Shown: one piece after another, positions 18,105-57,035 of the stretch | Layout: every line of letters starts with the position of its first letter | Position numbering within the stretch: position 1 is the first letter of the stretch | Assembly (NCBI GenBank): GCA_021234155.1 | Contig: JAJEKV010000012.1 | Location: forward strand, 2,947,638 to 3,011,637 | Direction of reading: 5' to 3' | DNA length: 64,000 nucleotides | From: Isoetes taiwanensis | Lineage: Eukaryota > Streptophyta > Lycopodiopsida > Isoetales > Isoetaceae | Translations under genes and position numbers: made by a program | Notes under the pieces: model-generated | What the model was told of the DNA's origin: nothing | The model's input: only the letters and a program-made list of their open reading frames with translations | Databases searched by the model: none

Positions 18105-20003
18105 CAGTGGAATAAGGCAAGGTTGCCCTTTAGCTCCTTTTTTGTTTACTATAGTGGCAGAAGGACTTTCGCAACTATTGCATGAGGCTGAAAAGGATGG
18201 TTTGGTAAAGGGATTATTATTGGTGGAAGGTGAACAGGTTTTGGTTAATCAGTTTGCAGACGATACCTTCTTGCTTGTGGATAGTGAAGAGAATAATGTG
18301 CAGATAATCAAAAAGATTTTGGATATATTTTCAATTGCATCTGGTTGTCTCCTTAATTGGGCTAAGTGTAGTGCGTTATGGGTGGGGAAGGAAGCAGTTC
18401 CGCATTTTTTATATGAGTATGCCTGGAAGGTTGTTGTACCATCTGCAAAGACAAAGCTTCTAGGAGTCCCCTTTGGTCTAGATATTGACATGAATGAAGC
18501 ATGGGATGAAATTATCTTAACTTTACAAAGGCAACTAATTTGGTGGAGAGGTTCAAAGTTATCCTTGGCAGGTAGAATTCAAGTAGCTAAGTCAGTATTG
18601 AACAATACGCATATTTATTTGGTTTCGGTTCTATTGGCTCCAGCTTCTAAGTTTGCAGAGATAAAAAAAATTGTAAGAGATTTTGTCTGGTGTACTGATC
18701 AAGGAGGCACTGTGAAGGTGGCGTGGAAGAAATGTATGTTGTTTAAACAACAAGGAGGACTTGGTATGTTGGATCTTTCTTTACAGGGTAAGGTCTTAGC
18801 TTCTAAGCTATTGTTCAGTTTGTTGAAAGATGATTGTGCATCACCAGGTATGAAGTTACTTAAACAATCAGTAAAGAAGTGTATGGTTTTTCATAAGCGA
18901 GGTGTGAGAATTGAGCTCTCTTGGGCATTGTTATATCCATTAAAAGCTTATTCACATGCCTCTCCAGTACTGAAAGGCTTGCTTCGGGCCTGGAAAGTAG
19001 TCCAACAGGTGATTATATTTGATTGGGAAGCTTGTCTCCATGCATCTTCCCCCTTTCTGTGGTTGCCTTTGTATACTCATGGACAACTACACCCAGTTGT
19101 AGAATTTATGCATGCGCATTCCCAAGCGAGGTGGAGGAGAGCAGGTATTATTTCTATTGACCAGTGGTATTTTGGTATTGACATTGCTCCTTGGCAATGG
19201 TTTTAGGAGACATATGGGTTGTTGGATAAAGATATCAGTATATGGGCTTATGTAGCAAGTGCTCTTCCTCTAATTAAGAAGGTGGGTAATAAGAGATGCT
19301 GGAACTTTGTTCAAGGTATTAACGAAGGCAAGAAGCTAGTAAGTTCATGCTACAGATTGCTTACCTCCTCAAGTACTTTATCACCTTCTTGAAAATGGCA
19401 CTTACAGACTTTGCCTTCTCAATGGCAATCCATCTGGAACCTTGTTTGGTCTAAATATAATCCTCCAAAGGTAAATGTTCTACTTTGGCAGGTGATTCAT
19501 CGCTCTTTGAGAGTTAATGAGATGGTTCATCGCTTTACGCCGGGAGTAAGCCCACTTTGCCCAATGTGTGAGCAGTGCATTAAAACATTGGAGCACTGTT
19601 TATATTTGTGTGCAGAGCTGAGTAGTCTTAGGTCCTGGCTGCATTCTCTTTTTGGAGTATCTTTGGAGCACTTTCTTTTGGGTATTTATCCAAATCAGTA
19701 CTGCTTCTAAAAGGATTGCATTTCACATGGCAAAGTCTTGGCTAATATGGAGTGTATAGAAGCGCAGGCGAAGAAAGCTCTTTTATGATAAGCGTATTTC
19801 TTCTCAGGGGGTGCTTCAAGAAATTCGTAAGAAGTTGTATAATTGCTTTCAGATCTCCAATTGGCCTGATCGTATTCAAATTCCAATATGGAGTGATCAT
19901 CTAAAAGTGATTGATGCTTCAGGGACATTTCTTACTTCTGGAAGTACTTTGTAATATTTTGAGTGTATAATATGAAGTAAAACACGTTCTTCAAAAAAAA
20001 AAC
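18105..20003 (+). pseudogene. L1-type LINE, 5'-truncated, reverse transcriptase C-terminal half
   Basis: The reading frame opens within the reverse transcriptase at GIRQGCPLAPFLFT and runs through the catalytic motif NQFADDTFLLV. A region around WWRGSKLSLAGRIQVAKSVL follows, and then a zf-RVT-like zinc cluster at about 19447-19640 (CPMCEQC, then HCLYLC). All these segments share one frame, broken only by TAG at 19204 and by a TGA near 19390. A 3' A-run at 19993-20002 marks the end of the retroposon. With the endonuclease and first half missing it is a typical 5'-truncated insertion. The FADDT motif separates it from the YADDV-type LINEs at 13-15 kb and 48-49 kb. Confidence 0.85.
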
Positions 20004-33635: not shown

Positions 33636-34011
33636 TTGTCTTCTAATTTCCCAAAACCGTCAATAGATTTTAGGGCACAGATTGAATCTCTGGAAGGCAA
33701 ATTACCCTCTCTGGTAGCTGAAACTACCAAAGAGCAAATGAAAATTCACCATGCAGAGATCTCCTCAGAGCAAAGAGACCAAGAAGCTCGGGCCAAAAAC
33801 CTGAAGATATCTGGTCTACATGAGATTGAGGGAGAAAATATTGCAGAAACGGTGAAACATTTCTTCTCAGTTCATGGCCCAAATCATGTATCTACAAGAA
33901 GATTGGGAAAGTCGGACTCTCATACCCGACCTATCTTGGTCAAATTCCAGAATAAAGAGGCAAGAGATCGTGTGCTTCATAACAGAAGTGCACTAAAAGG
34001 AGAAAGGATAT
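33636..34011 (+). pseudogene. LINE ORF1, 5' portion
   Basis: The frame encodes a charged, coiled-coil-prone N-terminus (around IESLEGKLPSLVAETTKEQM) and then a stretch typical of LINE ORF1 nucleic-acid-binding proteins (LVKFQNKEARDRVL). It runs into the MULE terminal repeat at 34012, and the codons after that point belong to the transposon. The same frame continues at 47127-47275. Confidence 0.75.
34003..34011 (+). repeat. 9 bp target-site duplication, left (AAAGGATAT)
   Basis: AAAGGATAT immediately precedes the left TIR and is repeated exactly at 47118-47126 after the right TIR. A 9 bp duplication is the hallmark of Mutator-type transposition. Confidence 0.95.
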
Positions 34012-34068
34012 GGAAGTCCGTATATCTCAAGCGGGATCTGGTTAATGTGGCCAGATTTCCCGTTATCA
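34012..34068 (+). repeat. MULE left terminal inverted repeat
   Basis: 57 bp identical to the reverse complement of 47061-47117. It contains GGTTAATGTGGCCA at 34040-34053, embedded in a small palindrome (CTGG...CCAG). Confidence 0.95.
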
Positions 34069-34567
34069 ACCACTACATTGCCATGCCCGCCATCCATCCG
34101 ATTGATGGCCATGGGGTTTTGGCGCATTAACCCATTCATGGGGCAGGATGCCATGCGAGAGCAGCCATGCGGGATATCCCATGCTACTTGCCATGCCATG
34201 CCAAATCCGCATTAACTGCAACCTGCCAACCGTACCTGCAGAAGTCCCTTGAACCGAATCATTTCTGTCCTGCAGTCATATCATCGCTTTCTGTCCCTTC
34301 AACTTCAACGGCCCGGCCACGTACGTTGCCATACCAAGCGAACTAGACGATTTTATTTCACTTCCATTTCAGGTAATGTCACATGGTCACCCATGGTTAA
34401 TGTGGCCATCAATCGAGGGGATTAATGTGGCCATAGATTTTCAAAATGTCCACCACAACGGTCACTACAACGGTCATGGGTTTAGGGTATATATGGGATG
34501 TCGTGGGTTAGGGTTTAAGGCAATTCATTGGGTTTCAATTCAGTTGAGATCAAGCAATCGAAGAAAC
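34069..34567. other. MULE left subterminal region
   Basis: The first ~130 bp show imperfect inverted similarity to the right subterminal region (shared CCCATTCATGGGGCAGG-like block). Scattered copies of the TTAATGTGGCC motif occur near 34396-34435. Confidence 0.6.
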
Positions 34568-35052
34568 ATGGTGAGGACCAGCAACAAATTTTCGAAAGTG
34601 CGAGTCCCCAATGTTCACACTATTGAAGATGTCGTGGTTCACTTGAATTGGCTTCAGGAGGACGTTGGAACAATTCTTGCAGAGAATAACAGTATCCACA
34701 CATTTAGAAGTGAGCATCTGCTTTTTCCTTCATATGAATTGTTTATTTGTGGTTGTGATTTGATTGTAGCTACACGCTTTATTTATACTGAGAGAGTGGA
34801 GAAAGGTGAGATCAACTTGAACCAGCCCCGCATTACATAGATGACAATGATAGGCCCAATGGAGGGAGCAATGATAGCCGAGTTGAAAATGCGATTATCC
34901 AAGCCAAGGCATTGAAGAAATTGCCGGCTTTGGACTTCTGTGGCGAGGCAACACTCAAGCCCCGCTTTGTTAAACCGTATGAGACACGCAAGTTGGAGAA
35001 GAAGCGTCTCATCGAAGATGTGCTGCAGGGGTTTGATGCAAGTCTTTGCTGA
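34568..35052 (+). CDS. MULE accessory gene, two-part, unknown function
   Basis: A frame starting at MVRTSNKFSKVRVPN (34568) runs to a possible donor GTGAGC at about 34709. A second open stretch (about 34815-35052) encodes a Lys/Glu-rich C-terminus ending KKRLIEDVLQGFDASLC and a TGA. The acceptor that would join them is unclear. I recognise no domain. Both parts lie between the left TIR and the first motif array, where MULEs carry accessory or captured genes. Confidence in the exact exon structure is low. Confidence 0.4.
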
Positions 35053-35240
35053 AGTCCTCGACCACATGTTGTGGTGGGAGTCCATATCCGTGCTGAAGTT
35101 ACCGTCGAGAGCGCGCAGAGGCCATGCAGGATCGGGTTGTTTCTGGATTGAATTACCATTAGCCTTGTATTACCTTTGAAATATATTATATCATACTATT
35201 GAACTCTATTACTGTTGTAATTGTATGTTGACTAAACTAC

Positions 35241-36690
35241 AGTGGCCACATTAACCAAAATGGGTTAAGGTGGCCATGGGTTAATGTGGCCATGGGTTAA
35301 TGTGGCCATAGATTAATGTGGCAATAGGTTAGTGTGGTCATGTGCCAACCATTGAATACCACACTTTATACCATGGTAGCACACTTTAAAGGAAAAGCCA
35401 CTAACACTTAGGGTTAATGTGGCCATGGGCTAAAGTGGTCACATTAACCATTATCGTTTAATGTGGCCATGGTTAATGTAGCCATGACTTAAGGTGGCCA
35501 CATTAACCACTATGGTTTAATGTGGCCATGGGTTAATGTGGCCATGGTTTAATGTAGCCATGACCTAAACTGGCCACATTAACCATTGGCCACATTAAGC
35601 CATGGCCACATTAACCCATGGTGGTTAATGTGGCCAAAGGGTTAATGTGGGCAATGGGTTAATGTGGGCAATGGGTTAATGTGGACACTGTGTTAATGTG
35701 GCCATGTGGCAATAGGTTAGTGTGGTCATGTGCCAACCATTGAATACCACACTTTATACCATGGTAGCACACTTTAAAGGAAAAGCCACTAACACTTAGG
35801 GTTAATGTGGCCATGGGCTAAAGTGGTCACATTAACCATTATCGTTTAATGTGGCCATGGTTAATGTAGCCATGACTTAAGGTGGCCACATTAACCACTA
35901 TGGTTTAATGTGGCCATGGGTTAATGTGGCCATGGTTTAATGTAGCCATGGCCTAAACTGGCCACATTAACCATTGGCCACATTAAGCCATGGCCACATT
36001 AACCCATGGTGGTTAATGTGGCCAAAGGGTTAATGTGGGCAATGGGTTAATATGGGCAATGGGTTAATGTGGCCAATGGATTAATGTGGCCAATGGGTTA
36101 ATGTGGACACTGTGTTAATGTGGCCATGTGGCCATGGGTTTATGTGGCCATAGGTTAATGTGGCCATGGGTTAATGTAGCCTTGGGTTAATGTGGCCATA
36201 GGGTTAATGTGGCCAAAGGCTCGTGGGGTTAATGTGGCCATAGGGTCATAGGGTCATGGGTTAATGTGGCCCTAGGGTTAATGTGGCCATATGGTTAATG
36301 TGGCCATAGATCATAGGGTCATGGGTTAATGTGGACATAGGGTTAATGTGGCCATAGGGTTAATGTGGCCCCGGGTTAATGTGGCCATAGGGTTAATGTG
36401 GCCCTAGGGGCCATAGGGTTAATGTGGCCAAAGGCTCGTGGGGTTAATGTGGCCATAGGGTCATAGGGTCATGGGTTAATGTGGCCCTAGGGTTAATGTG
36501 GCCATATGGTTAATGTGGCCATAGATCATAGGGTCATGGGTTAATGTGGCCATAGGGTTAATGTGGCCCTAGGGTTAATGTGGCCATAGATAATAGGGTC
36601 ATGGGTTAATGTGGTCATAGGGTTAATGTGGCCATAGGGTTAATGTGGCCCTAGGGTTAATGTGGCCATAGGGTTAATGTGGTCATAGGT
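35241..36690 (+). repeat. TIR-motif array 1
   Basis: Copies of GGTTAATGTGGCCA and its close variants recur about every 20-25 bp. In the left part some are in inverted orientation; from about 36000 onward almost all read GGTTAATGTGGCC on the plus strand. A 388 bp block beginning GCAATAGGTTAGTGTGGTCA is duplicated (35321 and 35709), and a shorter block around AAAGGCTCGTGGGGTTAATG occurs twice (about 36213 and 36430). The motif matches the one in the TIR. Confidence 0.9.
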
Positions 36691-36942
36691 TGCACTTAAA
36701 ATCTTCGACAATGCATCCACGAAAATCATGGGTTAATATGCCTTCCTATAAGCCATGATTAATCAGCCAATATGTGGCAATCATTCTTTCTGGGGTGGCG
36801 AAACTGTGCCAATCAATTCCTATGTCCAAACCATTAGGCTCGTACGAGTAGGCCAAAAATTGGGGAAAAGGAAGAACTCTGATTTCTGATATCTCGGGCT
36901 TCAAGCAGAAACAGGGCTCCATACTGCGCATCGATTAGGGCT

Positions 36943-38381
36943 ATGGCGAGTTCGATCAGTGCAACCGTTGCTGAAGAAATGTCTGTGAGCGAGGCAAGTA
37001 GGTCGGATTTGTCGGATTCGCCTGCAGTTCGAGATGGAGATGAAGCTTTCTTGCCTAATGTGGAAGAGCTACCAGCAGCTTTGAGGGATTTGAAGGAATC
37101 GGGGGCAGCAGTAAAAATCCAAAGTGAGGTCGATTCCAAGCATCCTGCTTCTCTGAGGAAGCTCAAGAAGGCTTCGCGCAGTGCTGCTGGGAAACTGGAG
37201 GCCCAACAACCCATGCATCAGGCAGATTCCGAGGTGGATGATCAGGCCCGGGAAAGGGGTTTTTTTTACAGTAAGAAAAGAAGCAAATGGTGTTGCCTCT
37301 CTGATGATTGTGGGTGGAACGGGAGGAAGAGGGCTAGACTAGAGGAGCATTTGAAGAGAAGGCATGGGCTGGTTGTGGAGGTTGAGCGGGCAGCTTGGGG
37401 CAGGAGAATGCAGGAGCAAGTTAAGCACAGGAGGAGGCCAGGCCGGGACCTGAGCCAATATGTTCAGAAGTATAGGCTGGATCCGGTTCACAGGTGGAAG
37501 GTAAACAGGAGCCAGTTCTTGAGAAGGGCACAGGCAGATTCAAAAGCAATTGCATATGCCCTACTTGTGGACATGCCCGATGGCACAGAGAAGGATTTGG
37601 AGGTGAAGAAATATGCCGAGGATTATGTGCAAAGGAGGGCTTTGGAATGGGACAGATCCAAGAACACTAAAATAGCTCTGTACAAGAAGAATATCAAAGA
37701 GTCTTATGCTTTTGATTGCACAGAAGAACAATGGCACGAGAGGGAGTTGGATGCCAATATGGCATCCTGCATGGATGAGCTGCAGTCCGAACTTTTGGAG
37801 AACACATGGTATTTTGACAGTCCAGCACATGATGGGTCGGAATCTAGTGAAGATGTAGCAGAGGAGAGTGCACTACCGACCCCTGGAACCCCTGTAACTA
37901 AGCTTTCAGCAGATGCAGCCGGATTGAGCATTAATGCTCCAATTAAGACCTCCCGGGTTGAAGCAGCCGAGAGTTCTAGTGTAAAGGATCCGGACTCCCC
38001 ACTGCGCCAAATGCCTCTTCATCTTATACCTGATAGCCCAGGAAGCCAGCAGGCCAGGGTTAGAACCGTCCTCACCTTAGAAGCTGATTTTGTGCTCAAT
38101 CCTGATTTCTTGCAGAAAGTTGAAGACCTGCACACCATGTTCCTATCTTCCAAGAAAAGAAAACTGAAATCTAGCAGGTCAGAACTTCCTGAAGGTTTGT
38201 CATATTGTTGTCTCTGGCCACTGCACCTAAAGAGCCCCTTGTGGTCTTGGGGATCAGCTCGGATGGGTGAGTTTGTGATAAGCAAGGAAGATGCAGCAGC
38301 ATTCGAGCACCCGGGTACTGACAATCCAGAGAAAGTGGGTGCTTCTTGGGTGAACGAGGAGTCGGTCGGCTCATATTTTAT
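36943..38381 (+). CDS. MULE-borne C2H2 zinc-finger protein, N-terminal exon of an Ulp1-like gene
   Basis: A long uninterrupted frame (about 480 codons) ends at a donor, TTTTAT|GTAAGT. It starts MASSISATVAEEMSVSEASR. Residues ~125-147 form a C2H2 finger with spacing C-x4-C-x12-H-x4-H (CLSDDC to HLKRRH), followed by a basic region (KHRRRPGRDLSQYVQKYRL) and acidic Ser-rich segments. The downstream exons carry an Ulp1-type cysteine protease tail. Plant MULEs often capture Ulp1-like genes (Kaonashi-type), so I read it as one captured or co-evolved gene. The zinc finger might bind DNA. Confidence 0.65.
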
Positions 38382-38882
38382 GTAAGTTTACTGTTCCTTT
38401 GGCTGTCCTTTTTTTAAATTGTGTTTTCGTGGCTGATTGTGCCCAAAACCCGTGATTCTTTCTCACTTCATACCCGTGAGTCTCGTAAGTACCACCAGTT
38501 CTTTCATCCTGGTCTGTTCGGACTATATTTGAGGCATGTTGATACCTTATGGAAGAAACTGCTCCCTCCCAAACCGAGCTCAGACTTGCTCTTCTATTGG
38601 CTGCCAATATGTGCCAAGTAAGTAGTCAATTTACATATTCTGCTTTTAATCTGAAATTGAACTCATTTCTTGCATTATTGCTGAAGTTCCCATTGGAGTT
38701 TGTTTGTCTACTGTGGAGATGTAGACATTTGCAATTGTGTTGGAACAAGCTGCCCCAGTCTGCTTCATTTCGACTCACTTGGCCGGCATTCTCACCGAGT
38801 CTACCCATTTGGCGTAGTAAGGCATCAATTTCGTGTTGCTTTTTTAATGTAATTACGTGTGTTGCTTTAATGTAAGGTTCTG
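38382..38882. other. Intron or broken middle part of the Ulp1-like gene
   Basis: Weak open pieces (38421-38621 and 38549-38875) could hold small exons, but the frame changes and no conserved motif is visible. The catalytic His of an Ulp1 protease would be expected here or in the preceding exon and was not identified. Confidence 0.35.
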
Positions 38883-39220
38883 GTGTTATACATCAGATTC
38901 ATACAGCAGGTTCATGGCCACTGGGGGCCTGATTTCCCTGACTGGCTCTCAATACCAATGGTTGAAATGCTAATCTCAACAGACAATGGTTCAGATTGTG
39001 GCATATTCACAATTCTTTGTGCACGCAGATTCATTGAGGATTTCATTGTGAATGACTGCACAAAGGAAGCTCGTGAGGTAAGCAATTGTGTGGAATTGCA
39101 GATTCATTGTCTTGTGATTCATGAATTCTGATTCTTGAATTGTGTGCAATTGTGCAGGTCAGTCCGGAATGGTTCAAAGAAAGTGCAAGTTGCAAATTGC
39201 GTGCATCTACACAGATGTAG
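38883..39220 (+). CDS. Ulp1-like cysteine protease C-terminal exons (in MULE)
   Basis: The frame contains STDNGSDCGIFTILCARRF, the conserved (Q/D)NGxDCGxF motif with the catalytic Cys of Ulp1/SENP (C48) peptidases. It ends at a donor (GAG|GTAAGC near 39079), and a second short exon after TGTGCAG at about 39159 finishes at TAG 39218-39220. C48 enzymes cleave SUMO. Only the Cys box is clear, and the missing His/Asp context makes activity uncertain. It presumably forms one gene with the zinc-finger exon upstream. Confidence 0.6.
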
Positions 39221-39537
39221 TATTGGGCAAATTGCAGGAGACCTTGGTGAGCACAAAGAATGTTAAGAAAGGCAAGGCCAAGGGAAGGCTGAATAAGTAG
39301 ACTATAATTTTTGTGGAAGTTTATCATAACAGAAATAGAAACATGGTACTTTTTTATTGCAGTAACTTTATTATAACAAAAACTTCTTTATAATAACTGA
39401 GACAGAAACATGAGACTTTTCTAGAACAGGAATTTCTTCATTACTGAAACTTTTTCATTGTACAAACTATTTCAGAACAGAAACTTTTTCATTACAGACT
39501 TTTGATTACATAAACTTTTTTCGCTACTGAAACTTCT
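39221..39537. other. MULE intergenic
   Basis: AT-rich sequence with repeated AACTTCTTCA/GAAACTTTTT phrases from 39340 to 39540, a short degenerate tandem. No gene. Confidence 0.5.
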
Positions 39538-40017
39538 TCACAAGGCCATGGTCTGTCGGCCTATGATGGTATGCCTGGGAAATGCATACCCTATGTGTCC
39601 TGTTGAGTCCTCCGACACATCATCTGACGACAGGTCACTAACGACGTGAACGATCTTCATCTTCTTTGCTTCTGGCTCCCTGCTAGTGCTGGCTTCCTCA
39701 TTGGGATGTGCTAGTGCTGGTGCTGGCTTCGTGTGCTTTCTCTTGCATACCTTTGCCTTCCTCCTGAGTGGCGTAAGGGGTGCTGATTTCACCGCCGAAG
39801 ACTCAAGCTTCAGAACCTGGCGGGCTTAGGTCCTGCAGAAGAGGCCAGATCCTTCAACATTCGAAGGATTGGACATCGGCTTCGAGTTATGGCCATTGGA
39901 AGAAGAGGCGCCTGCAAGAACCTTGTCGCCTGACACTAGATCGAACGGGAGGATCAGGAAACTGTTCCTTTTTAACCCTGAAAGTTTCGTATGCAATCCA
40001 CGCACGTTTTTAACCAC
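39538..40017 (-). pseudogene. MULE ORF, basic/Ser-rich, with one in-frame stop
   Basis: Two open stretches in one frame (40017-39826 and 39825-39538) are separated by a TAA. The product is rich in Lys, Ser and acidic residues (PLRRKAKVCKRKHTKP, VSDLSSDDVSEDS) and looks like a disordered nuclear protein. An intron might remove the stop, but none is obvious. No family is recognised. It lies between the Ulp1-like gene and array 2, convergent with the former. Confidence 0.4.
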
Positions 40018-40199
40018 GTGTTGATTGAATCATTAACCAACCATTGAATATTAACCACATTAACGAACCATTTAACCAACCATTGAATATCAACCAATTA
40101 ACCATTGAATATTAACCATTAATGGAAGCCTTGGCAAATTTTCACAATTCTATCTTAAAATAGCATGGAACATTCAATTACCCTAATGTGGATGAAATT
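40018..40199. repeat. ACCATTGAATATTAACC-type short repeats
   Basis: Four or more copies of ACCATTGAATATTAACCA and variants in tandem. The same phrase occurs at 42776-42880 beside array 3, so it is a second repeat class that borders the TIR-motif arrays. Confidence 0.75.
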
Positions 40200-41135
40200 G
40201 AGACGTGAGCCATGGGTCATGGGTTAATGTGGCCATGGGTTAATGTGGCCATGGGTTTATGTGGTCTTGGGTTAATGTGGCCCTTGGGTTAATGTGGCCA
40301 TGGGTTAATGAGGTCTTGGGTTGATGTGGCCATAGTGTTGATATGCCCATGGGTTAATGTGGCCCTGGGTTAATGTGGTCATGGGTTAATGTGGCCTTGG
40401 GTCAATGTGGTCATGGGTCAATGTGGCCATGGGTTAATGTGGACTTGGGTTAATGTGGCCTTGGGTTAATGTGGTCATTGGCCATGGGTTAATGTGGCCA
40501 TGGGTTAATGTGGCCATAGGGTTAATGTGCCCATGGGTTAATGGCCTTGGGTTAATGTGGCCTTGGGTTAATGTGGTCATGGGCTTAATGAGGTCTTGGG
40601 TTGATGTGGCCTTAGGTTAATGTGGTCATGGGTTAATGTGGCCATGTGCTTAATGAGGTCTTGGGTTGATGTGGCCATAGGGTTGATGTGCCATTGGGTT
40701 AATGTGGCCCATGGGTTAATGTGGCCATGGGTTAATGTGGCCATAGGGTTAATGTGGCCTTCGGTTAATGTGGTCATGGGTTAATGTGGCCATGGGTTAA
40801 TGTGGCCATGGCTTAATGTGGCCTTGGGTTAATGTGGCCTTGGGTTAATGTGGCCATTGGCTTAATGTGGCCATGGGTTGATGTGGCCATAGGGTTGATG
40901 TGCCCTTGGGTTGATGTGGCCCATGGGTTAATGTGGCCATGGGGTCAATGTGGCCATGGGTTAATGTGGCCATGGGTTAATGTGGCCTTGGGTTAATGTG
41001 GTCATGGGTTAATGTGGCCATGGGTTAATGTGGCCATGGGTTAATGTGGCCTTGGGTTAATGTGGCCTTGGGTTAATGTGGCCATGGGTTAATGTGGTCT
41101 TGGGTAAATGTGGGCTTGGGTTAATGTGGCCATAG
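40200..41135 (+). repeat. TIR-motif array 2
   Basis: About forty near-regular units of ATGGGTTAATGTGGCC with a ~20-22 bp period, almost all on the plus strand. Unit variants (CTTGGGTTAATGTGG, ATAGGGTTGATGTG) alternate in higher-order order. The core equals the motif at 34040-34053 in the TIR. Confidence 0.92.
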
Positions 41136-41773
41136 GGTCAATAGGTTTATATGTAATGATGGCATTTAAAGTTTTGAACTTACTTTTATGCTTTAAACAC
41201 AACCTGCAGCATAGCCCGAAGCATCAGGGATACCCTTAAGCATACCCTTAAACATTACTAATTTGCTAGTGTAGTGACCTTTTCTTCAATGAGTAATGAT
41301 GCACATCATTTTATTATTACAATTATCATTTCAAAATGATGACGCTACCATTATCAAACTCCGCCATTGTAGTGGAACAAATGTTAATGTCATATTCTAA
41401 ATCCAATGGTTATTTCTTCAAAGTGCACCCTCCAATTTTTTCATGAACATGACTAAGAATAATTGAATGACATTCGAACGCGCTCTCACTATTAGAATAT
41501 TGGACCATGGTCTACTTTTTAATTACGAGTCTAATTGTCTACTTTTCGGGGCATGGAGTGTACCTTGGTAATGATATATAGGATTATATGGGATAATAAT
41601 TAATAAATTCGTACAAATTTAAATAATGATTTTTAGGAATCTATGGGATAATAATAATTAAATTCGGTGTACGAAATAATTTCTGATTTATCGTATTAAT
41701 TCGCATATATATGCCCGCGAAGGTTTCATTCTTCCCCAATTTTTTTTTTCCTCTTTCCTTTTGGCCTTAGAAC
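41136..41773. other. MULE intergenic, AT-rich
   Basis: No gene. 41570-41700 contains a partial duplication of GGATTATATGGGATAATAAT and ATCTATGGGATAATAATAAT. The stretch leads into the acidic ORF and may hold its promoter. Confidence 0.45.
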
Positions 41774-42213
41774 ATGAAGAGATCTGCACGGCTGGCCGCT
41801 TGTTGCCTTGGAGAAGAACCCGAGGTCTCTTCTAAGAGACCTCGGACAGAGCCTCGGGTGGAATTCCCACCCCTGGCTGAGGTTTTTGCGAGCCTCGTGG
41901 ATACGTGGTCATCCTCTTCCTCTTCTGATTCCGAATCAGAGGAGGAAGAAGAGTCTCTGTAGCCGCCGAATTCTTCACGGCCCAACTTGAGGGAAGTGGG
42001 ATATCTCCTGAAGACAACGTCTGGTCTTCGTCGTCGGAGGAAGCAGAGGAAGATGAAGAGGATGCAGATTCCGCAGAGGATGAAGAGGAGGATTTCGAGG
42101 AGTGGCTCCTCTGGCTGAAAGGTAGTTTTGAAGTTTGAATTTTGTTCATTTACATTTCAATTTCCTAATCGTTTCGTGACCTGTAGATGATGCAGAAGAG
42201 GAAGAAGAAGAGT
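41774..42213 (+). CDS. MULE small acidic protein gene
   Basis: The start MKRSARLAACCLGEE is followed by a Ser/Asp/Glu tract (SSSSSSDSESEEEEE) and a TAG at 41960. A +1-shifted frame continues from about 41950 through a second acidic tract (EEAEEDEEDADSAEDEEED) to EEWLLWLK. A donor there (AAAG|GTAGTT near 42122) and an acceptor at CCTGTAG 42186 allow a final exon ending in EEEEEE and TGA. So either a short intron or a frameshift lies near 41955. The acidic, low-complexity composition gives no function; many MULE accessory proteins are of this kind. Confidence 0.45.
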
Positions 42214-42281
42214 GAAAGCTTGGGCCTCCTTTTGTTTAGGAATGTACATGCTGGGCTCCCTGTTTTTTTCTTGTACATGCA

Positions 42282-42629
42282 GGCCTCCGGGCTTTTTTGA
42301 ACTTTTTTTTTCTCTTGTAAAGCCTTCGCCTTCGGCCTCTGATTTCAAGCCTCCGGGCTGAAGTAAATTGTGAGTTCGGCATTTATATGTAAAGCCCTCT
42401 GGGCAAATTTTCTGAAATACAGACTGAAAACTTTTGAATTCAGACTCAATTTGGTGGCCTCCGGGCCTTTTTGAACTTTTTTTTTCTCTTGTAAAGCCTT
42501 CGCCTTCGGGCTCTGATTTCAAGCCTCCGGGCTCAAGTAAATTGTGAGTTCGGCATTTAGATGTAAAGCCCTCTGGGCAAATTTTCTGAAATACAGACTG
42601 AAAACTTTTGAATTCAGACTCAATTTGGT
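42282..42629 (+). repeat. 174 bp tandem duplication
   Basis: The unit starting GGCCTCCGGGC and ending near GACTCAATTTGGT occurs at 42282 and 42456 with very few differences. It lies directly downstream of the acidic ORF and looks like duplicated 3' untranslated sequence. Confidence 0.88.
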
Positions 42630-42879
42630 TCCTGCTTCACTAAAAATGTTGTGAACGTCTATAACTGTAAAAAGCAATTCCACGGGGTTTTAGGATTCCA
42701 CGGGGTTTGGGGTACACGAAAATGTTGTACTAAAAATGCTGCTTCACTAAAAATGTTGTAAACGTTTACAACCTTTGAATATCAACCATTGAATATCAAC
42801 CATTGAACATAAATCATTTGAATACCAACCATTGAGTATCAACCATTGAACATTAATCATTAACCAACCATTGAATATT

Positions 42880-43660
42880 TAATGTGGCCAAGACTTCATG
42901 TGGCCACATTAACCCAATTTGGTAAATGTGGCCAAGACTTCACGTGGCCACATTAACCCAATCTGGTTAATGTGGACAAGACTTCATGTGGCCACATTAA
43001 CCAAAATGGGTTAATGTGGTCAACACTTCATGTCGCCACATTAACCCAATTTGTTGAATGTGGCTAAACCTGGCCATGGCCACATTAACCCAATCTGGTT
43101 AATGTGGACAAGACTTCTTGTGGCCACATTAACCCAATCTGGTTAATGTGGCCAAGACTTCATGTGGCCACATTAACCCAATTTGGTAAATGTGGCCAAG
43201 ACTTCACGTGGCCACATTAACCAAAATGGGTTAATGTGGTCAACACTTCATGTCGCCACATTAACCCAATTTGTTGAATGTGGCTAAACCTGGCCATGGC
43301 CACATTAACCCAATCTGGTTAATGTGGACAAGACTTCTTGTGGCCACATTAACCCAATCTGGTTAATGTGGCCAAGACTTCATGTGGCCACATTAACCCA
43401 ATTTGGTAAATGTGGCCAAGACTTCACGTGGCCACATTAACCCAATCTGGTTAATGTGGACAAGACTTCTTGTGGCCACATTAACCCAATCTGGTTAATG
43501 TGGCCAAGACTTCATGTGGACACATTAACCCAATCTGGTAAATGTGGCCAAGACTTCACGTGGCCACATTAACCCAATCTGGTTAATGTGGCCAAGACTT
43601 CATGTGCCCACATTAACCCAATTTGGTTAATGTTGCCAACACTTCATGTGGCCACATTTT
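42880..43660. repeat. TIR-motif array 3, alternating orientation
   Basis: Here GGTTAATGTGGCCA and TGGCCACATTAACC alternate, separated by AAGACTTCATG or CAATCT, giving a ~45 bp palindromic unit repeated across ~780 bp. Higher-order duplication is visible (the block from AATGTGGCTAAACCTGGCCA recurs at about 43065 and 43275). Hairpin formation is likely. Confidence 0.9.
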
Positions 43661-43748
43661 TTTTTTTTTGGGGCAAGGTTGGTTCTACATTGCATTTATA
43701 AAAGAGACACAACTTTATAAAAGACATGAGTTTGTTTGGCCACAACCT

Positions 43749-45917
43749 TCACTCTTGAAGATGCCCTTCACACTCTCGCGAAAACACACTAGAACCAACA
43801 AGCTTCTTTTGCCTCTTCCGACACTCCACGAATGGAACTGGCCTCACCAATGTTTTTCCATTGAAGTCCTCCACGATGGGTAGACTGGGTGCAGCAACAG
43901 TGTCTAACTTGCAAGTGGTCAATCTCTCCAACTTCAAACTAAGCTCCCGTAGGAGGAAATCTGCCTCCAAAGCAACTTGTGGGCTACTAGATATGGTCTC
44001 CCTAATGCGTGCCATGCTCGCATTTATGCTACTCTCAATTCTTGTGGTGGGGGAAATCTTCTCCTCACCAATGCCATCCTCAGGTACAATCTTCTCCTCG
44101 CCATTGTCATGCTCCAATCCTGTCACCAATGTGCAAGTATCCTCTGAACTAGATGGTGCCCGGTTATCAAGAAAACCATCATCGTATGCCTCTCCAAATA
44201 CCCTCAAGTTCTCCAAACCGCCAGCTTGAGAACCATGCAATGTTCCACAAACCCTTAAAATGTCCTCCTCACTATACTTGGCCATCATTTGGATCACTTT
44301 GACCTGGTGTTTGCAAATGTTACCTTTCGTACCCCAAGGGCAGTCACAGGATGACCAGTGCTCATGGGCAACATCCACAAGGTAGGGGATAGCCTCTCGG
44401 CTAGCATCCCATGCATCCATATTTTGACTCCACACTTCTGCCCTCCCTTCTTTGAAGTTCAACCATCTAACAGCCTCATCAGGAATGACACGTGCCCCTA
44501 TAATTGCTGTCTCAACTATGTGCTCCTGTCTCTTATTCACTTTGAAACCCTCATCCTTCTTGAACCTGTCATAAAGAAGGTGTGTTTCCAATCTACAAGT
44601 GAGCATGTAGATCAACCAATCAATCCTCCTACCTCTCAAGGCGTGCTTCGAAACCCCTAGCTTTCTCTTCATTTGGTTGTGATAAGCCTCTATAGCCGCA
44701 TTTGTCTCTTGGTTGGTATGAGGATAGATTCTTGTAGCAATGATCCAAGTGGTGATGTTCTTAGTCCAAGTCCTGTTCATGTACTTAACAACCCTCTTCC
44801 AAGATTTGTATTTCTCCTTGAACTCATCCAATAGCCTCAAAGCTTCCCTCTCACAAGCATCCACATAATCCTTACCAAATCTTCCATCCGCTTCCACATG
44901 TGTGTTATACATTATGTGGCCAAGGTCCTTAAACATCTCCCCTCTAACCTTCTTGTTCTTCACATGCTTCAAGAGCATTTTCATCCAATTTCTCCTCACA
45001 TGCCAAATGCACAATTGTATTCTAGAATTAGGCCAAACCTTTTCCAATGCATTAATCTCTGCTTTGGCATCATCAACAATAAAACAAGAGGGTTGCCAAG
45101 TGGGATCCACAGCATGGATGTGATTCTTCAATGCAAAGAGCCAAGGTCGGATGTCCTCTTCTGCCTGGCTAGACGTGAGAACCCAAGCAACGGGTACACC
45201 ATTTCCATGACCATCGTATACTAGCAAGGTGTACAGGCTATAGCAATGGTCGTTTGTCTTGAAAGTTGAGTCCATTGCTACATCATCATTCTTGCCATGT
45301 TCTAAGAGAATCTTCATCTGAAAGGGAGTGATTATCCCTAGAGTAAATGGTACACCTTCTTGGTACAAGAACACTGATTCTGGGTGCAATCCTACCCACA
45401 TCCTTACACTCAAAGCAACGTCCTCGTGTAACATCCAAGTGTCCAATGCTATCTTCCTAGACAAATTGTAGAGATCATCCATGTGAAGGAATTGATCTCT
45501 ATTCTTCACATTATTCGGATCCATCTTCTTCTTTAGAGCCCATTGCTCTTCATGCTGCCTGTATACCTCCTGTGGGTTGTGATTCTGTATCAACTGATTC
45601 CTGGCCCAATCTTTCTTCTCCTTTGATAACCAAGGAGCTAGTTCGTGCCTGGTCTTCGCACATTCAGGATCATTAACACCATGACATACTTTGCCTTCCA
45701 GGTCAATGTGTTCCATCTCATGAAAGGTTATTTTGGTGCATTCGGGATTCAAATACAATTGCTTCGTCGTAAAATGGCACCTACACCCTCTCTTGATGCT
45801 CGTACCCCTCTGTCTCTTTGAGTATGATGGGTCAATCCTCTTTGTTTCAGCAACCATAGCTTTGGTTGTTTTCTCCTTCACTTCACGGCGTTGTTTATGG
45901 AGATCTTTTTTGCCCAT
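43749..45917 (-). CDS. MULE transposase (MURA-type), uninterrupted
   Basis: An open frame of 722 codons from MGKKDLHKQRR; a Met 21 codons further upstream (45980) is possible but the intervening sequence is hydrophobic and follows an AG acceptor. Domains: an N-terminal Cys/His region (KRGCRCHFTTKQLY, about 45-70), the catalytic core with DDE-type aspartates in MDSTFKT (~213) and IVDDAKAE (~280) and a QLCIWHVRRNW box, then a SWIM zinc finger CDCPWGTKGNICKH (~523-537). The family cuts DNA at Mutator TIRs and pastes it with 9 bp duplications, as seen here. It lies near the right TIR and is transcribed leftward. No stop or frameshift is present, so the protein may be functional. Confidence 0.9.
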   Translation of the reverse strand: MGKKDLHKQRREVKEKTTKAMVAETKRIDPSYSKRQRGTSIKRGCRCHFTTKQLYLNPECTKITFHEMEHIDLEGKVCHGVNDPECAKTRHELAPWLSKEKKDWARNQLIQNHNPQEVYRQHEEQWALKKKMDPNNVKNRDQFLHMDDLYNLSRKIALDTWMLHEDVALSVRMWVGLHPESVFLYQEGVPFTLGIITPFQMKILLEHGKNDDVAMDSTFKTNDHCYSLYTLLVYDGHGNGVPVAWVLTSSQAEEDIRPWLFALKNHIHAVDPTWQPSCFIVDDAKAEINALEKVWPNSRIQLCIWHVRRNWMKMLLKHVKNKKVRGEMFKDLGHIMYNTHVEADGRFGKDYVDACEREALRLLDEFKEKYKSWKRVVKYMNRTWTKNITTWIIATRIYPHTNQETNAAIEAYHNQMKRKLGVSKHALRGRRIDWLIYMLTCRLETHLLYDRFKKDEGFKVNKRQEHIVETAIIGARVIPDEAVRWLNFKEGRAEVWSQNMDAWDASREAIPYLVDVAHEHWSSCDCPWGTKGNICKHQVKVIQMMAKYSEEDILRVCGTLHGSQAGGLENLRVFGEAYDDGFLDNRAPSSSEDTCTLVTGLEHDNGEEKIVPEDGIGEEKISPTTRIESSINASMARIRETISSSPQVALEADFLLRELSLKLERLTTCKLDTVAAPSLPIVEDFNGKTLVRPVPFVECRKRQKKLVGSSVFSRECEGHLQE

Positions 45918-46009
45918 AGGCACGATGGTAACTAAAACAAAAAGCCACACTTCAATTCTTGTGGTGAAACATTCAAACATATATGCACTAACAAGCCATT
46001 AATTAACTA

Positions 46010-46292
46010 CCATAATAGGGCCACATTAACCACTATTACTAAGTAAGTCCACATTAACCACATTAACCACCACTTAGGGCCCTACAATAACTATGGCCAC
46101 ATTATCAACTTCTAAAGGCCACATTAACCACTACAATCGAAAGCCACATTAACCACTTATTAAACCACCGCTAATGCCTGAGGCAACAGACTATGGCCAC
46201 ATTAACCATCACTCAGTTCAAACACTACCACCCTTTCCTAAACTTACCACCACTACCAACCCACGCGAAATTTAAGAGCTTGGGTATGGCCA
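46010..46292 (-). repeat. TIR-motif array 4 (upstream of the transposase)
   Basis: Dispersed copies of GGCCACATTAACCAC lie on the plus strand, the opposite orientation to array 2. The array falls directly upstream of the transposase start, where a promoter is expected, so binding of the transposase there could affect its own expression (inference). Confidence 0.75.
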
Positions 46293-46653
46293 CATTAACC
46301 GACAACTGACCTCACGATCTTCAGATAGGCATGCTCGTCAACGCGCTTCTTTGCCTCTCCGCTCTCTCTTGACCGGGACCATTGCTTATAAAATGTAGTA
46401 TTAAACCACGGATATTTACGCTCCCCAAAGATGAAGTCTGAAACTCTTCGTTACTTGGAATATAGCAAAGAAGGAACAACAGAATGAGCCACTCTTTGGG
46501 ACTGTGTGGTGAGTTTCCATTTCCCATGTCAGATCCTTCCTTGAAAACGGGCCTGGGGGAGGATCTTGAATGGGGAGGATCTGTAATTCGAGATAATTTG
46601 CTGCTTACATCGTTTTCTGGAAAGAAATGAAAAGCAAACAATTCAAAGCTTAC

Positions 46654-46689
46654 CTTCTTGACCTCCGGATCGGTCATGTCGGCCGCCAT
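46654..46689 (-). other. Possible first exon of the transposase gene
   Basis: MAADMTDPEVKK ends at a good donor, AAG|GTAAGC. The transposase ORF region starts after an AG acceptor near 45935. Phase does not match directly, so an extra exon or a non-coding first exon would be needed. Weak. Confidence 0.25.
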
Positions 46690-47060
46690 CTCCTACAACA
46701 ACCCGACGAATTCAAGTCCCGGAAGGGGAATGGGTAGAAGGGGATTTCTGAAATTCTCATCCAAAGCGAATTTCTTCCACGGCAAGGCATTTCACTGTCT
46801 GATGCGGAAGCGGTTGAAAGATTTTGCTCTGAACTATCCATTTCAGGAAGAGGACGCTAATGATTCAAGTGACTTGGGCAGGTACGGTGGGCAGGCAGGT
46901 TGCAGTTCTTAATGGGGATGGATGGATCGCACGGCAAGCAGCATGGAATATACATATCCCCTTCGCGAACTTCGCATGGGCATCCGGAACCCCTGCCCCA
47001 TGAATGGGGTATGGCGGCTGAAGCCCATGCCCATCGATGGGGATGTCGGGAATGAGTGGC
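46690..47060. other. MULE right subterminal region
   Basis: 46658-46912 has a plus-strand frame with no recognisable domain. From about 46920 the sequence is imperfectly inverted relative to the left subterminal region. Confidence 0.5.
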
Positions 47061-47117
47061 TGATAACGGGAAATCTGGCCACATTAACCAGATCCCGCTT
47101 GAGATATACGGACTTCC
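47061..47117 (-). repeat. MULE right terminal inverted repeat
   Basis: Reverse complement of 34012-34068 with no mismatch over 57 bp. It carries TGGCCACATTAACC at 47076-47089. Confidence 0.95.
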
Positions 47118-47126
47118 AAAGGATAT
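47118..47126 (+). repeat. 9 bp target-site duplication, right (AAAGGATAT)
   Basis: Exact copy of 34003-34011, directly adjoining the right TIR. Confidence 0.95.
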
Positions 47127-47275
47127 GGTTAGATTTGGATCTAACTCCCATTCAATTGGAAATTTGGAAGCAGGACCGGGGCCGGGCCAAAGTGAAAGAA
47201 GCAAGAGACTCAGGACTGGTAGCTCATCTGGATCAGGGAGGCAAGGCGATTGTCACAAACAGAAAGCATAAATAG
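47127..47275 (+). pseudogene. LINE ORF1, 3' portion
   Basis: In the frame set by 33636-34011 this part starts LDLDLTPIQLEIW and ends at TAG 47273-47275. The plus-strand frame from 46922 to 47275 is a chance fusion of TIR and LINE sequence. Confidence 0.8.
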
Positions 47276-47283
47276 GATGCAGG

Positions 47284-49428
47284 GGCTTTGAGAGTCAGTC
47301 TATGGAATGCACATAGGCTAACTCAAGCTAAGGTCGATGCTACTTTAAAAATATGGGAAGACCAAGACTTGCTTTTGTTTACCGAAATATGGACACATCA
47401 ATTCCATCTTCCACTGGATATAACAGGTTTTAAGCTTCTGGGTCAAGTATGAAATAAGAAAGGGACAGGAGCAGGGATAGGTTTTGGAAGAGTTGCAGTT
47501 TACAAAAGAGAAGATTCCATGCATGAGATCCAAGTTTTGAAGAATGATATTAACAACCAATACATTTGGTTGCTGGTAAATGAAAGCACGCAGTCGATAT
47601 TCATAGCAGCATGCTATTTTGCTCCGGATCATTCACCCATATACAACAATCGTGAATTGGATAAAGACAATCCTTTTGGCAGTTTATGTTCTGATATCTT
47701 ACAGTTTCATCACAGGATGAAATACTGGTTGTAGGAGATTTCAATGGGCGCACGGGTTGCCAGCAAGCTAAAGCTTTTGACAACTTAGCAAACCCTTGCC
47801 TTGATAATAGAAAATCTGATGATATTGTTTCAAACGAAAGGGGTCTAGAAGTAAGCACTATGTGCCAGATGAAAATACTCAATGGAGTACAGTCATTTGG
47901 TCATTCAGGAAAGCTCACATATCATAATCATGCAGGAGCCAGTACAATTGACTATTTGCTTGAAGGAATAAGGATTTAATTGCTGATTTTTTCGTAGGAG
48001 ACAAACAACCAGAATCAGATCATAGGCCACTGTATATGGTGCCTAAGACGCAAGCAATTTCAGAAATGCAAAAGCCATGTTTCCATCCCAAGCTCAAGGT
48101 TGACTATGAGCATCATTTAGCATACAAAAAATTAGTAGAAGAGCACCATACTGAAGCCATTTGGTCAGGGACTTTTGAAGCAGATGCAAAACAGTTCCAG
48201 GCCATTGTATTTGAAGCAGCTAGACATATCTTAGGTCTATCCAGAAAATGCCTGCAAGGCAAGCCTTGCAACTCATGGTGGGATTTTGAATGCCAAGAGG
48301 CGAGGAGCACACTACCACAGAATTGTACATGCAAACCTAAATGGTATAAGAAGTTGATCAGACAAGAAAAGCGTGACTTTTTTGCACTACATCAGGCAGA
48401 GTTATCTGACCAATTTTGGAAAAATTCAAAAAGTTTCTGGAACACGCTACAAGGCAGACCAGAGCTAGCTATTTTGGACATGGAAGTTTTATGCAATTTA
48501 GTCAAAGATATGTATGAAAAGGAGGGCGCAGATGGGATGCCAAAAATGGCTCTTAGTGCAAACTTATTCACAGTATCCGAGGTAAGAGATTGTCTATCCA
48601 CGGCAAGCAACAACAAGGCTCGTGATGCAGATGGTCTATGTATGGAGCTTTTTAAGTGGGGAGGCGATAAAACCGTATCTATCCTGACAGATCTGCTAAA
48701 CAAAAGCCTCAGGCAAAGGCTGCCAACCAATTGGAGAACCAACCGTGTACATTCAATCCACAAGGGAGGAGATAAAAGAGTAGCAAGTAACTACAGAACG
48801 ATTCTAATTGGTAGCGTATTTGCCAAAATTCTAGGCAACCTTTTGGAAGGGAAGCTAAGCTCCTGGGCAGAGCAAGCAGCTGTGTGCTCAGAGTGTCAAG
48901 CAGGTTTCAGAGGTAATCATAGCACATTGGGTCATGTGCTTACCCTCAGGACATTGTGCCACGCAAGAAGCTTAGTGATAGAATGCAACAGATTGGTGTT
49001 CCTCTAAGCATTAGAGAGGCAGTCTCACAGCAATATGTTGAGGTGTTGATTAAAGTCTCATGGGACCATGGCATGGAAATTAGGAGCACCATAGGGGTAC
49101 GTCAAGGTTGTCCTTTATCTCCAACACTATCCGGAATCTTCATAGATGAATTGGATGATTGGTTGAGGACCAGATCTCTTGCAGGCACAAAACTCGGCAT
49201 GTATGTTATTCGGCTTCTTCTCTATGCAGATGATGTGGTTCTATTAGCAAGCAAACAGAGAGTATTACAAGATCATTTGAATAGCCTGGAAGCATTCTGT
49301 GAAGCGAAATACATGAATGTGAATACAAATAAATCGATGATCGTGGTATTTGGCACCAAAGATAGGCTAAATTTCACATACAAGGGGCAAGTTCTAGAGA
49401 CTGTGGACTGTCACAAATATCTGGGGAT
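47284..49428 (+). pseudogene. LINE ORF2: endonuclease and reverse transcriptase, frameshifted
   Basis: The endonuclease begins near 47284 (LRVSLWNAHRL), with a catalytic box VGDFNGRTGC near 47728 and PESDHRPLYM near 48010. The reverse transcriptase follows, with KARDADGLCMELFK (48617), a GGDKRVASNYRTI box, VRQGCPLSPTLSGIFIDEL (about 49099) and the catalytic LLLYADDVVLLAS (about 49213). Frame changes occur near 47455 (TGA), 47715, 47975 and 48950. The enzyme would nick target DNA and prime reverse transcription, but this copy cannot. It is the same clade as the LINE at 11.7-15.5 kb. It is interrupted at YLGI by the 135 bp element. Confidence 0.85.
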
Positions 49429-54934: not shown

Positions 54935-57035
54935 ATGCTTTTGAAGAATAAGAATTTCAGGCCCCTGGGTGCTCAGGAAAAAAATGCCCGGCGGGAACTC
55001 ATCTGTGGTCATAATCTGATGTTGGCAAGGACCAGGCCCAACTCCTACAGCTGGACTGATAAAAGGGTTGCTCCTACCTTGTGTCTTCACGACAGGTTTT
55101 ATCTCTCCCGGAATCTCCTCGGAATTACAGTAATAGAGTGGTCAATTCGAAAGGGTTTACCCTTTTGACCACTATCCCCAACAGGTTGGTGATATTGGCC
55201 CTATATGGAGAAAAAAAAAACACATACTTCAAGCTTTGAATATCAGCCTTCTGGAGCAGGATGATTTCATGGATAAGCTGCAACAAGTCATCAACAGATA
55301 TCCTAAACCTGTAGGGGCTTCAGGCTGGATGTTTTGGTGGATCAAGGTTTCTAAAGCTATCAAGAATTGGCTCAAGGAGTGGGCAAAACCATTCACAAAA
55401 CGTAAATTGGCTTTTCCTTATAATTTAACGGATTCCCCAGAGATGAGAAGGATAACTTTCGAGGTGAAGTTGAGAGGGGGGAGATAAGAATTGCCAGAGG
55501 GATGGAAGCTAAAAGCCAAGATTCGAGAAATTAAGGATGATGGAAGATGTAGTTCTAAATTCTTCTTTGTCAAGGCAAAGGATAAGATTAAAAGGAACCA
55601 AATCTTTGCGGTTAAAGTGGGGGATGACTTCATCTCAGATGAGATTCAGATCAAAAAGGCTGCTGCTGAGCACTTTACCAACATCATGGACACTAATCAG
55701 GATAGCCATCAAGATATTATGGACAGATTCATCAATCTTCAGGCTAAGATTAGTAACGAGGATAATGCACATATGGATAGGCCATTCTCGAATGTTAAGC
55801 TTCTTCAGACTGCCAGAGAGATGGACAATGGCAAAAGTCCAGGGCCTGATGGCCTTCCTGTGGAATCCTACATCAAGGCTTGGCCTATCCTTGGTCCGCA
55901 TCATATGCATCGCCAAGGAGTTCAAAAAATCAGAAGTGTATGGATGCTAGGATAAATACCCGGCTTATTATATTGATTTCAAAGGTCGACATGCCTACCA
56001 CGTTCTCGGATTATAGAGCTATCTCCTTATCCAATGTAATTTACAAGCTCATTTCTGATCCTATAGCCAGGAGGCTTAAACCTCGCGGCCGATAAGATTA
56101 TCGCCTTCTTCTCGGTGCTAATCTTAAAGATAGGTTTATCCTTGACAATGTGGTGACAGCCATCCTGGGGCTGAGCTGGGCCAAGGACTCAAAGCAGGAT
56201 ATTGCCCTTATCAAACTCGACATTACCAAGGATTTCGACACTGTAAGTTGGAACTTCTTTTTTAAGTGTTGTAGGGCCCTGGAATTCTCAAATGAGGTAA
56301 TTCTTATCTTTAAAACCATCCTTATCAATTCTAGATCTTCGATCTTAATTAATGGGGAGTGTAGCCCCTTCTTCCCTTTGCGAAGAGGGGTCAAGCAAGG
56401 CTGCCCACTTGCCCCCTTCCTTTTCTTGATTATAATGGAGGCCCTTCGTGACAAGATGGAGAAGGCTAAAGGTTTAACCTTCATTTTGCAGATGGTACCT
56501 TTCTACTGGTCTCTATGGATCATCAATCTATCATTAACACTGGAGGACTTCAGGGCTGCCTCGGGTTGCAAGAATAATCCCATCAAATCAAAGGTTTTGG
56601 CTAGAGATCAGGTAAAAAGAGAGCAAACAGCTGCTCTCTTAGGCTGTAAGTATATCCTACCCACTAGTTCTTCTAAGATCTTAGGTATTCTATATGCTAT
56701 AAAGGGCAGTCCCTCTGATATCTGGAATGAAATTATTGAGAAGTTTTAGAGGAAATTGATAGTCTTAACTCTAAATACATCTTTAAGCATGGAAGGGCTA
56801 TTTATTGCGAATTTTATGTTCTCCTCTTCTCATGGTATCAGTCCTCTGTCATCGTGACCCCTAAGAGGGTCTCCTCCAAACTTCAGAGCATTATTGGTAG
56901 ATCCATTTCCTGCGGACAAAACAGAAGGTGTTGGACTCCATTCTCTATGGAGGAATGCTGCAAGAAGAAGATGTAGGGGAGCTTGGGGGTCATTAATATT
57001 GAGAAGCAGGGGTTAGCCCTTACTTCTAAGTACTA
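54935..57035 (+). pseudogene. L1-type LINE, decayed, cut at its 3' end by a gypsy element
   Basis: The endonuclease end (TRPNSYSWTDKR, RFYLSRN) is at 55030-55110. Reverse transcriptase motifs follow: MDNGKSPGPDGLPVE (about 55820), FSDYRAISLSNVIYKLI (about 56007), IKLDITKDFDTVSWNF (about 56208) and GVKQGCPLAPFLF (about 56387). The FADD motif is lost to a deletion after 56490. Many frameshifts are present. Sequence similarity to a LINE stops where the 81 bp hairpin and LTR begin. Confidence 0.8.

Follow-up and report, generated by a model that had tools for sequence, protein, structure and literature searches.

VANC proteins reportedly, by the title of a paper, act in anti-silencing in eudicots. 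In Arabidopsis, VANDAL elements carry tandem arrays of a short motif that is bound by their own VANC protein (PMC5735166). The 9-base motif that VANC21 of VANDAL21 binds lies in tandem arrays outside the coding sequence, also within introns, and the protein causes methylation loss; the targets of VANC6 carry other motifs (PMC5735166). Unpublished work on the coevolution of VANC structure and target DNA is mentioned in a 2026 meeting report (PMC12859917). In the Spm element, TnpA binds subterminal repeats and is required for transposition (PMC2613891). Two further systems are MULEs of Aedes, among them Muta1, which have a repeated short motif in the TIR, target duplications of 8-9 bp and many nonautonomous derivatives (PMC5225508), and Galileo of Drosophila, which has several transposase-binding sites in its long TIRs (PMC3688188).

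The window (the whole 64-kb stretch of Isoetes DNA that was analyzed) contains a Mutator-like transposon (MULE) at 34012-47117 that is inserted in a LINE. The element starts with GGAAGTCC and ends with GGACTTCC. Its left TIR (34012-34068, forward strand) is perfect over 57 bp and can be aligned imperfectly to about 34271, its right TIR lies at 47061-47117 on the reverse strand, and the two 9-bp target site duplications at 34003-34011 and 47118-47126 are identical (AAAGGATAT). The ends of the element had been given exactly by the first-pass annotation of this DNA. When the flanks of the element are joined, the frame of the LINE ORF1 is open; the insertion breaks ORF1 and a downstream ORF (33636-34011 and 47127-49007), and more LINE-like reverse-transcriptase pieces were seen by eye at 18082-19206 and 56096-56749. 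The MULE transposase domain is present (PF10551, 69.8 bits against a Pfam cut-off of 27.6).

The likeness to VANDALs is found in a MULE with an extra gene, in dense arrays of a short motif outside the coding sequence, also in introns, and in related elements that have related proteins with different motifs (PMC5735166, PMC10398659); lineage-specific arrays of this kind, a VANDAL feature, were also found in the present family. Unlike in VANDALs, the second protein has no match in Pfam, not even to DUF1985, the motif is 14 bp long with ends shared across lineages, and anti-silencing is here a presumed function. The presence of the motif in a long perfect TIR may be a further contrast. The original VANDALs, whose TIRs are absent or short and degenerate, are unlike the window element with its 57-bp perfect TIR, but some elements of that group have TIRs of 46-174 bp (PMC6446971). 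With TnpA of Spm/En the element shares a candidate DNA-binding protein other than the transposase together with repeated short motifs, and in CACTA elements too the motifs vary from family to family and the proteins show little resemblance (PMC2613891). Yet the GGAAGTCC ends, the MULE transposase domain and the 9-bp duplication set it apart from Spm/CACTA with their CACTA ends, tnp2-type transposase and 3-bp duplication, and the Spm sites are subterminal whereas those of the window element are mostly internal (PMC2613891). Muta1 differs in that its motif, in about 9 copies, lies within the TIR, and neither a second gene nor internal arrays are described in the available part of the source (PMC5225508); Galileo differs as a P-superfamily element with its sites in the TIRs (PMC3688188).

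At up to two mismatches, GGTTAATGTGGCCA was found 160 times in the window against 0.64 (sd 0.73) expected from 100 shuffles. All 160 matches, of which 71 are exact and 142 have at most one mismatch, lie within 34012-47117, with none outside; at up to three mismatches the numbers are 179 inside the element and 3 outside. It had been proposed that the TIR core motif is amplified in four internal arrays, and the matches bear this out with coordinates that were right within tens of bases. At up to two mismatches the motif is present once in each TIR (34040-34053 and 47076-47089, as previously noted) and in arrays that adjoin both genes. While the arrays and TIRs had been listed in the first-pass annotation, it lacked the second gene and a subterminal motif pair at 34395 and 34420 (34395-34433, forward strand), which has a similar counterpart in the copy on contig C41.

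Array 1 (35243-36685) has 68 motifs at up to two mismatches, mostly at a spacing of 16 or 17 bp and in mixed orientation, with a duplication of 388 bp, and about 260 bp separate its end from the second gene that follows. In array 2 (40222-41132) 47 motifs in a 16-bp unit are forward throughout. Array 3 (42877-43638) contains 33 motifs in mixed orientation, the 44-bp unit consisting of two inverted motifs, and its near end is about 110 bp beyond the transposase stop. Array 4 (46018-46300) has only 8 motifs, all reverse, with irregular spacing and unlike flanks, despite which the motif core is kept; it differs between the window and C41 by small motif-bearing insertions and substitutions. Anchored profiles, whose anchor columns are constant by design, show the strongest conservation in the 14-base block for most arrays; the spacers between the blocks are about 2 to 12 bases long and vary in both length and sequence. 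In arrays 2 and 3 and in the arrays of C907, conservation extends to adjacent motifs and to some positions of the spacers.

One possible explanation for such arrays is that they are selfish satellites that arose from the TIR core by slippage and unequal exchange and are bound by no protein. The tandem layout, the nested duplications (the 388-bp unit is one of them) and the strong variation of the arrays from copy to copy are what this would produce. Still, we consider it quite improbable: the 14-base block is conserved above most spacer positions (in profiles whose anchored columns are constant by design), the motifs of array 4 are irregularly placed among dissimilar flanks, arrays recur by the second gene in several lineages with altered motifs, and short MITE-like copies retain 4-7 motifs.

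The reading that we prefer, and hold with moderate confidence, is that the arrays are clustered sites for a DNA-binding protein encoded by the element, most likely the product of the second gene, with a predicted role in activation or anti-silencing. This gene (36943-38385, forward strand) is an intact ORF of 480 amino acids, convergent with the transposase gene, and its protein has a C-x4-C-x12-H-x4-H stretch that looks by eye like a finger of the C2H2/BED type. For the window protein there is no Pfam match at E up to 1, to DUF1985 or to any other family, and DUF1985 is absent at E up to 10 from all seven sequences or pieces in the alignment of this protein. Two database searches, with about 8000 candidates scored in each, gave no homologue at E <= 0.001, and PDB sequence searches with both protein families returned nothing at E below 0.1. 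The single-sequence AlphaFold model (pLDDT 40) was not used for structure; this poor model, the lack of a recognised domain and a finger that was seen only by eye count against the preferred reading. As two-sequence estimates without error bars, the dN/dS values of the second gene are 0.44-0.49 against the C196 copy, where an adjacent noncoding stretch gives 0.79, and 0.22-0.30 against the C151 copy, which has 5 stops in the compared pieces.

The main exon of the transposase is located at 43749-45931 on the reverse strand with a predicted start (the ATG-to-stop frame is 43749-45980) and contains the Pfam MULE domain; a SWIM domain stays below the Pfam cut-off, and inspection of the alignment by eye shows DDE-like residues. 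It is matched by four database proteins, among which those of Adiantum (33%) and Ceratodon (36%) are the best and a further one is from Oxalis (28%); judged from these sequences, fern and moss proteins are the closest to the transposase of the host plant. AlphaFold gives a weak model of it (mean pLDDT 52), and the best fold match in the PDB is the ISCth4 transposase (Foldseek E 1.6e-6, with a low TM of 0.21/0.35), which we take to be an IS256-family, Mutator-related protein. Further upstream, a putative intron with splice-like ends GTCAGT and TTTTGTTTTAG (45932-46310, reverse strand) encloses array 4, and homology to the N-terminus of relatives continues beyond it: a candidate N-terminal exon piece, PPPGPFSRKDLTWEM (46518-46580, reverse strand), resembles the relatives P0001-P0004, and a first exon may lie at 46654-46689 on the same strand, by upstream homology and splice-like signals. 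This suggests that the N-terminal exons are at about 46311-46689 and that array 4 is intronic. In the window copy the putative exon pieces are in different frames and cannot be joined into one. Compared with C41 and C196, the window transposase has left the frame at the conserved YGPKD segment of the N-terminal region (about 45900-45931). With the start of the main exon thus out of frame, a full transposase may not be made from the window copy. The dN/dS values of the transposase, again from two sequences and without error bars, are 0.36 against C41 and 0.31, 0.92 and 0.51 against three pieces of C196.

In the host assembly (1.66 Gb, 1110 contigs) the exact motif occurs 3343 times, against once for the reversed control. 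The first 100 exact sites listed fall on 14 contigs, of which 12 have the TIR or the genes of the family in the DNA inspected, so the motif is not a general satellite; the sites listed on C27 and C138 are single, with no TIR detected. Doublets of the arrays were not found in genome and viral contig collections, from which the plant's own genome was possibly left out. At least 97 matches to the second protein (32-100% identity) and at least 79 to the transposase (49-100%) were found in the same genome. Based on 76 of these matches for the second protein and 62 for the transposase, with further fragments dropped by eye, the two genes are neighbours within 25 kb in 28 pairs, 26 of them convergent, where 0.14 pairs are expected by chance, and the second gene can therefore be regarded as a standing part of this MULE family. 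Other copies have arrays as well: in C196 they adjoin the same genes in the same order as in the window, and C41, a 5.4-kb relative that lacks the second gene and for which a 9-bp target duplication was looked for and not found, has subterminal, internal and transposase-proximal motifs. That C41 has arrays without the second gene counts against the second protein as the binder, although a protein supplied in trans could serve this copy. Seven MITE-like elements, 361-447 bp in length, have the TIR and 4-7 motifs each; when shifts of up to 4 bases were allowed in the search, five of them have a 9-bp target duplication (0-1 mismatch), one has an 11-bp duplication offset by a few bases and one has none.

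Another hypothesis, the one put forward in the first-pass annotation, is that the transposase itself binds the 14-mer and that the arrays are extra sites for titration, for autoregulation or for bringing the ends together. The motif lies in the TIR, the part on which a MULE transposase has to act, and in the ends of the MITE-like elements, and the TIR of Muta1 of Aedes has 9 subterminal repeats of 12 bp (PMC5225508). Between lineages the transposase also differs together with the motif (identity of 67%, 76% and 71% in C1034, C1025 and C985, which have other motifs), so that it could be the binder. However, the arrays flank both genes and lie far from the ends, with which the more than 150 internal sites would compete; the second gene, though conserved, would have no role; and in elements with a different motif the transposase changed less than the second protein. 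We therefore regard this hypothesis as unlikely, and the product of the second gene is probably the likelier partner and the best candidate for binding the arrays.

This difference between the two proteins was seen when elements of different lineages were compared. In all seven convergent pairs with a second-gene identity of up to 62%, the second protein is less alike than the transposase (62/83, 50/67, 49/77, 48/76, 42/71, 41/71 and 40/75%, second protein/transposase), whereas close elements are mixed, with the transposase being less alike in five pairs (93/81, 91/89, 85/78, 83/81 and 81/79%). DNA was obtained for the best 30 of the 97 second-gene loci, as the match with 1.5 kb on each side (L053 and L057 overlap), and 25 of the 30 have at least 16 copies of GGTTAATGTGGCCA. 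Three close loci (L051, L052 and L056) have few or no motifs (0-3) in the inspected flanks, which is evidence against the second-protein model. L054 and L055 (50% and 48% protein identity) have zero GGTTAATGTGGCCA but 37 and 62 copies of a second motif, GGTTAATCAGGACA, which is also present in the C1034 member (50%). Upstream of one second-motif element, the locus L063 (C1078:17132700-17135200) appears LINE-like by eye and is possibly a nested insertion; it has neither the first nor the second motif at up to two mismatches, and no TIR was noticed there. More distant members have other words again: GGTATTTCTTGCCA and GGTATTTCCAGACA in the arrays of C1066 (42%), GGTGTTTCTGGCCA in those of C985 (41%) and C924 (38%), and GGTAAACCTGGACA in those of C907 (36%); the third motif can be written as GGTATTTC(TT/CA)G(C/A)CA. 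In every lineage the motif is 14 bp long, and the consensus words differ in their core, whereas GGT on one side and G(C/A)CA on the other are common to all. In the count matrix (up to two mismatches) the commonest motif of every element is its own; the third and fourth motifs overlap heavily, and there is minor cross-matching between others; the window element, for instance, has 7 matches to the second motif. Proteins and arrays thus appear to diversify together, in a comparison of few lineages without a tree, and since whole elements are inherited together, this concordance is partly plain ancestry.

In three of the four lineages for which a TIR was read, the TIR matches the arrays of its own element. 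The TIR of C1025 aligns with that of the window and has GGTTTATCCGGACA at the offset where the window has GGTTAATGTGGCCA, and the TIR of C985 has GGTGTTTCTGGACA where its arrays have GGTGTTTCTGGCCA. With five array models, each of the five TIRs (window, C41, C1025, C1066 and C985), from four lineages, scores best with its own arrays, at 26.5, 26.5, 13.7, 4.6 and 21.5 bits in the same order; the TIR stretches of C1025, C1066 and C985 were chosen by eye for their likeness to the window TIR, at one end each. For C1025 the third motif is a close runner-up (12.0 against 13.7 bits). Of 2000 shuffles made for each of the window, C1025, C1066 and C985, the own score was reached by 0, 1, 135 and 0, respectively, and the match of C1066 is therefore not significant. 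A motif common to the TIR also bears on a host-side explanation, in which the arrays mainly attract small-RNA silencing and their turnover is an escape from it. The noncoding regions of VANDALs are targeted by RNA-directed DNA methylation as well as by VANC (PMC10398659), but escape alone fails to explain why the 14-mer stays similar from array to array and recurs in the TIR, and we think such an origin very improbable.

A motif of constant length that lies by both genes and in a likely intron, is rewritten along with the second protein and is matched by the TIR is what a binder encoded by the element predicts. In the mechanism that we favour, the product of the second gene would recognise the 14-mer in the TIRs, the subterminal sites, the gene-flanking arrays and the transposase intron, and the bound protein would coat the noncoding parts of the copies of its own family. 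Through anti-silencing or activation, such a coat may keep these copies open to transcription, and the transposition machinery may still recognise them because of it; anti-silencing or activation would be the likeliest output, with end marking second. By analogy, the second protein probably acts like VANC of VANDALs or TnpA of Spm, through a predicted binding to its motif. The data suggest that each element family has its own protein-and-address system. A wider claim, which we put forward tentatively and rate at somewhat below an even chance, is that this is a second sequence-specific system of anti-silencing or activation in transposons that evolved independently, with a protein family that has no detectable likeness to VANC and a 14-mer, common to the element ends and the internal arrays, that is rewritten throughout the element as the protein diverges, so that one genome contains four or five motif lineages.

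The first-pass annotation knew of no described MULE with such an arrangement, which finds no support in view of the VANDAL motif arrays bound by VANC (PMC5735166), and because these are already known the present arrays are not categorically new. What looks new among MULE arrays is an unrelated second protein together with a motif shared with the TIR; in the literature searched, as far as the accessible parts of the texts go, no MULE combines these with several versions of the motif in one genome. An architecture like that of VANC with a protein of no known family suggests that motif-directed control of chromatin by transposable elements may have arisen on more than one occasion. Since the motif is also in the TIR and exists in several versions in one genome, the family is a natural set in which proteins can be paired with motifs, and it is a possible source of new sequence-specific DNA-binding or demethylation modules.

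Other repeats were also observed in the element. Between arrays 2 and 3, at 42282-42629, there are two direct repeats of 174 bp that are 97% alike and contain CTCCGGGC-like words. A second small repeat, AACCATTGAATA, adjoins the motif arrays (35347, 35735, 40039-40112 and 42769-42878), and 11 of its 12 matches at up to one mismatch are inside the element. A 17-bp tandem repeat, ACAGAAACTTTTTCATT, is located 3' of the second gene at 39426-39540 and is also present in the relatives L041 and L043.
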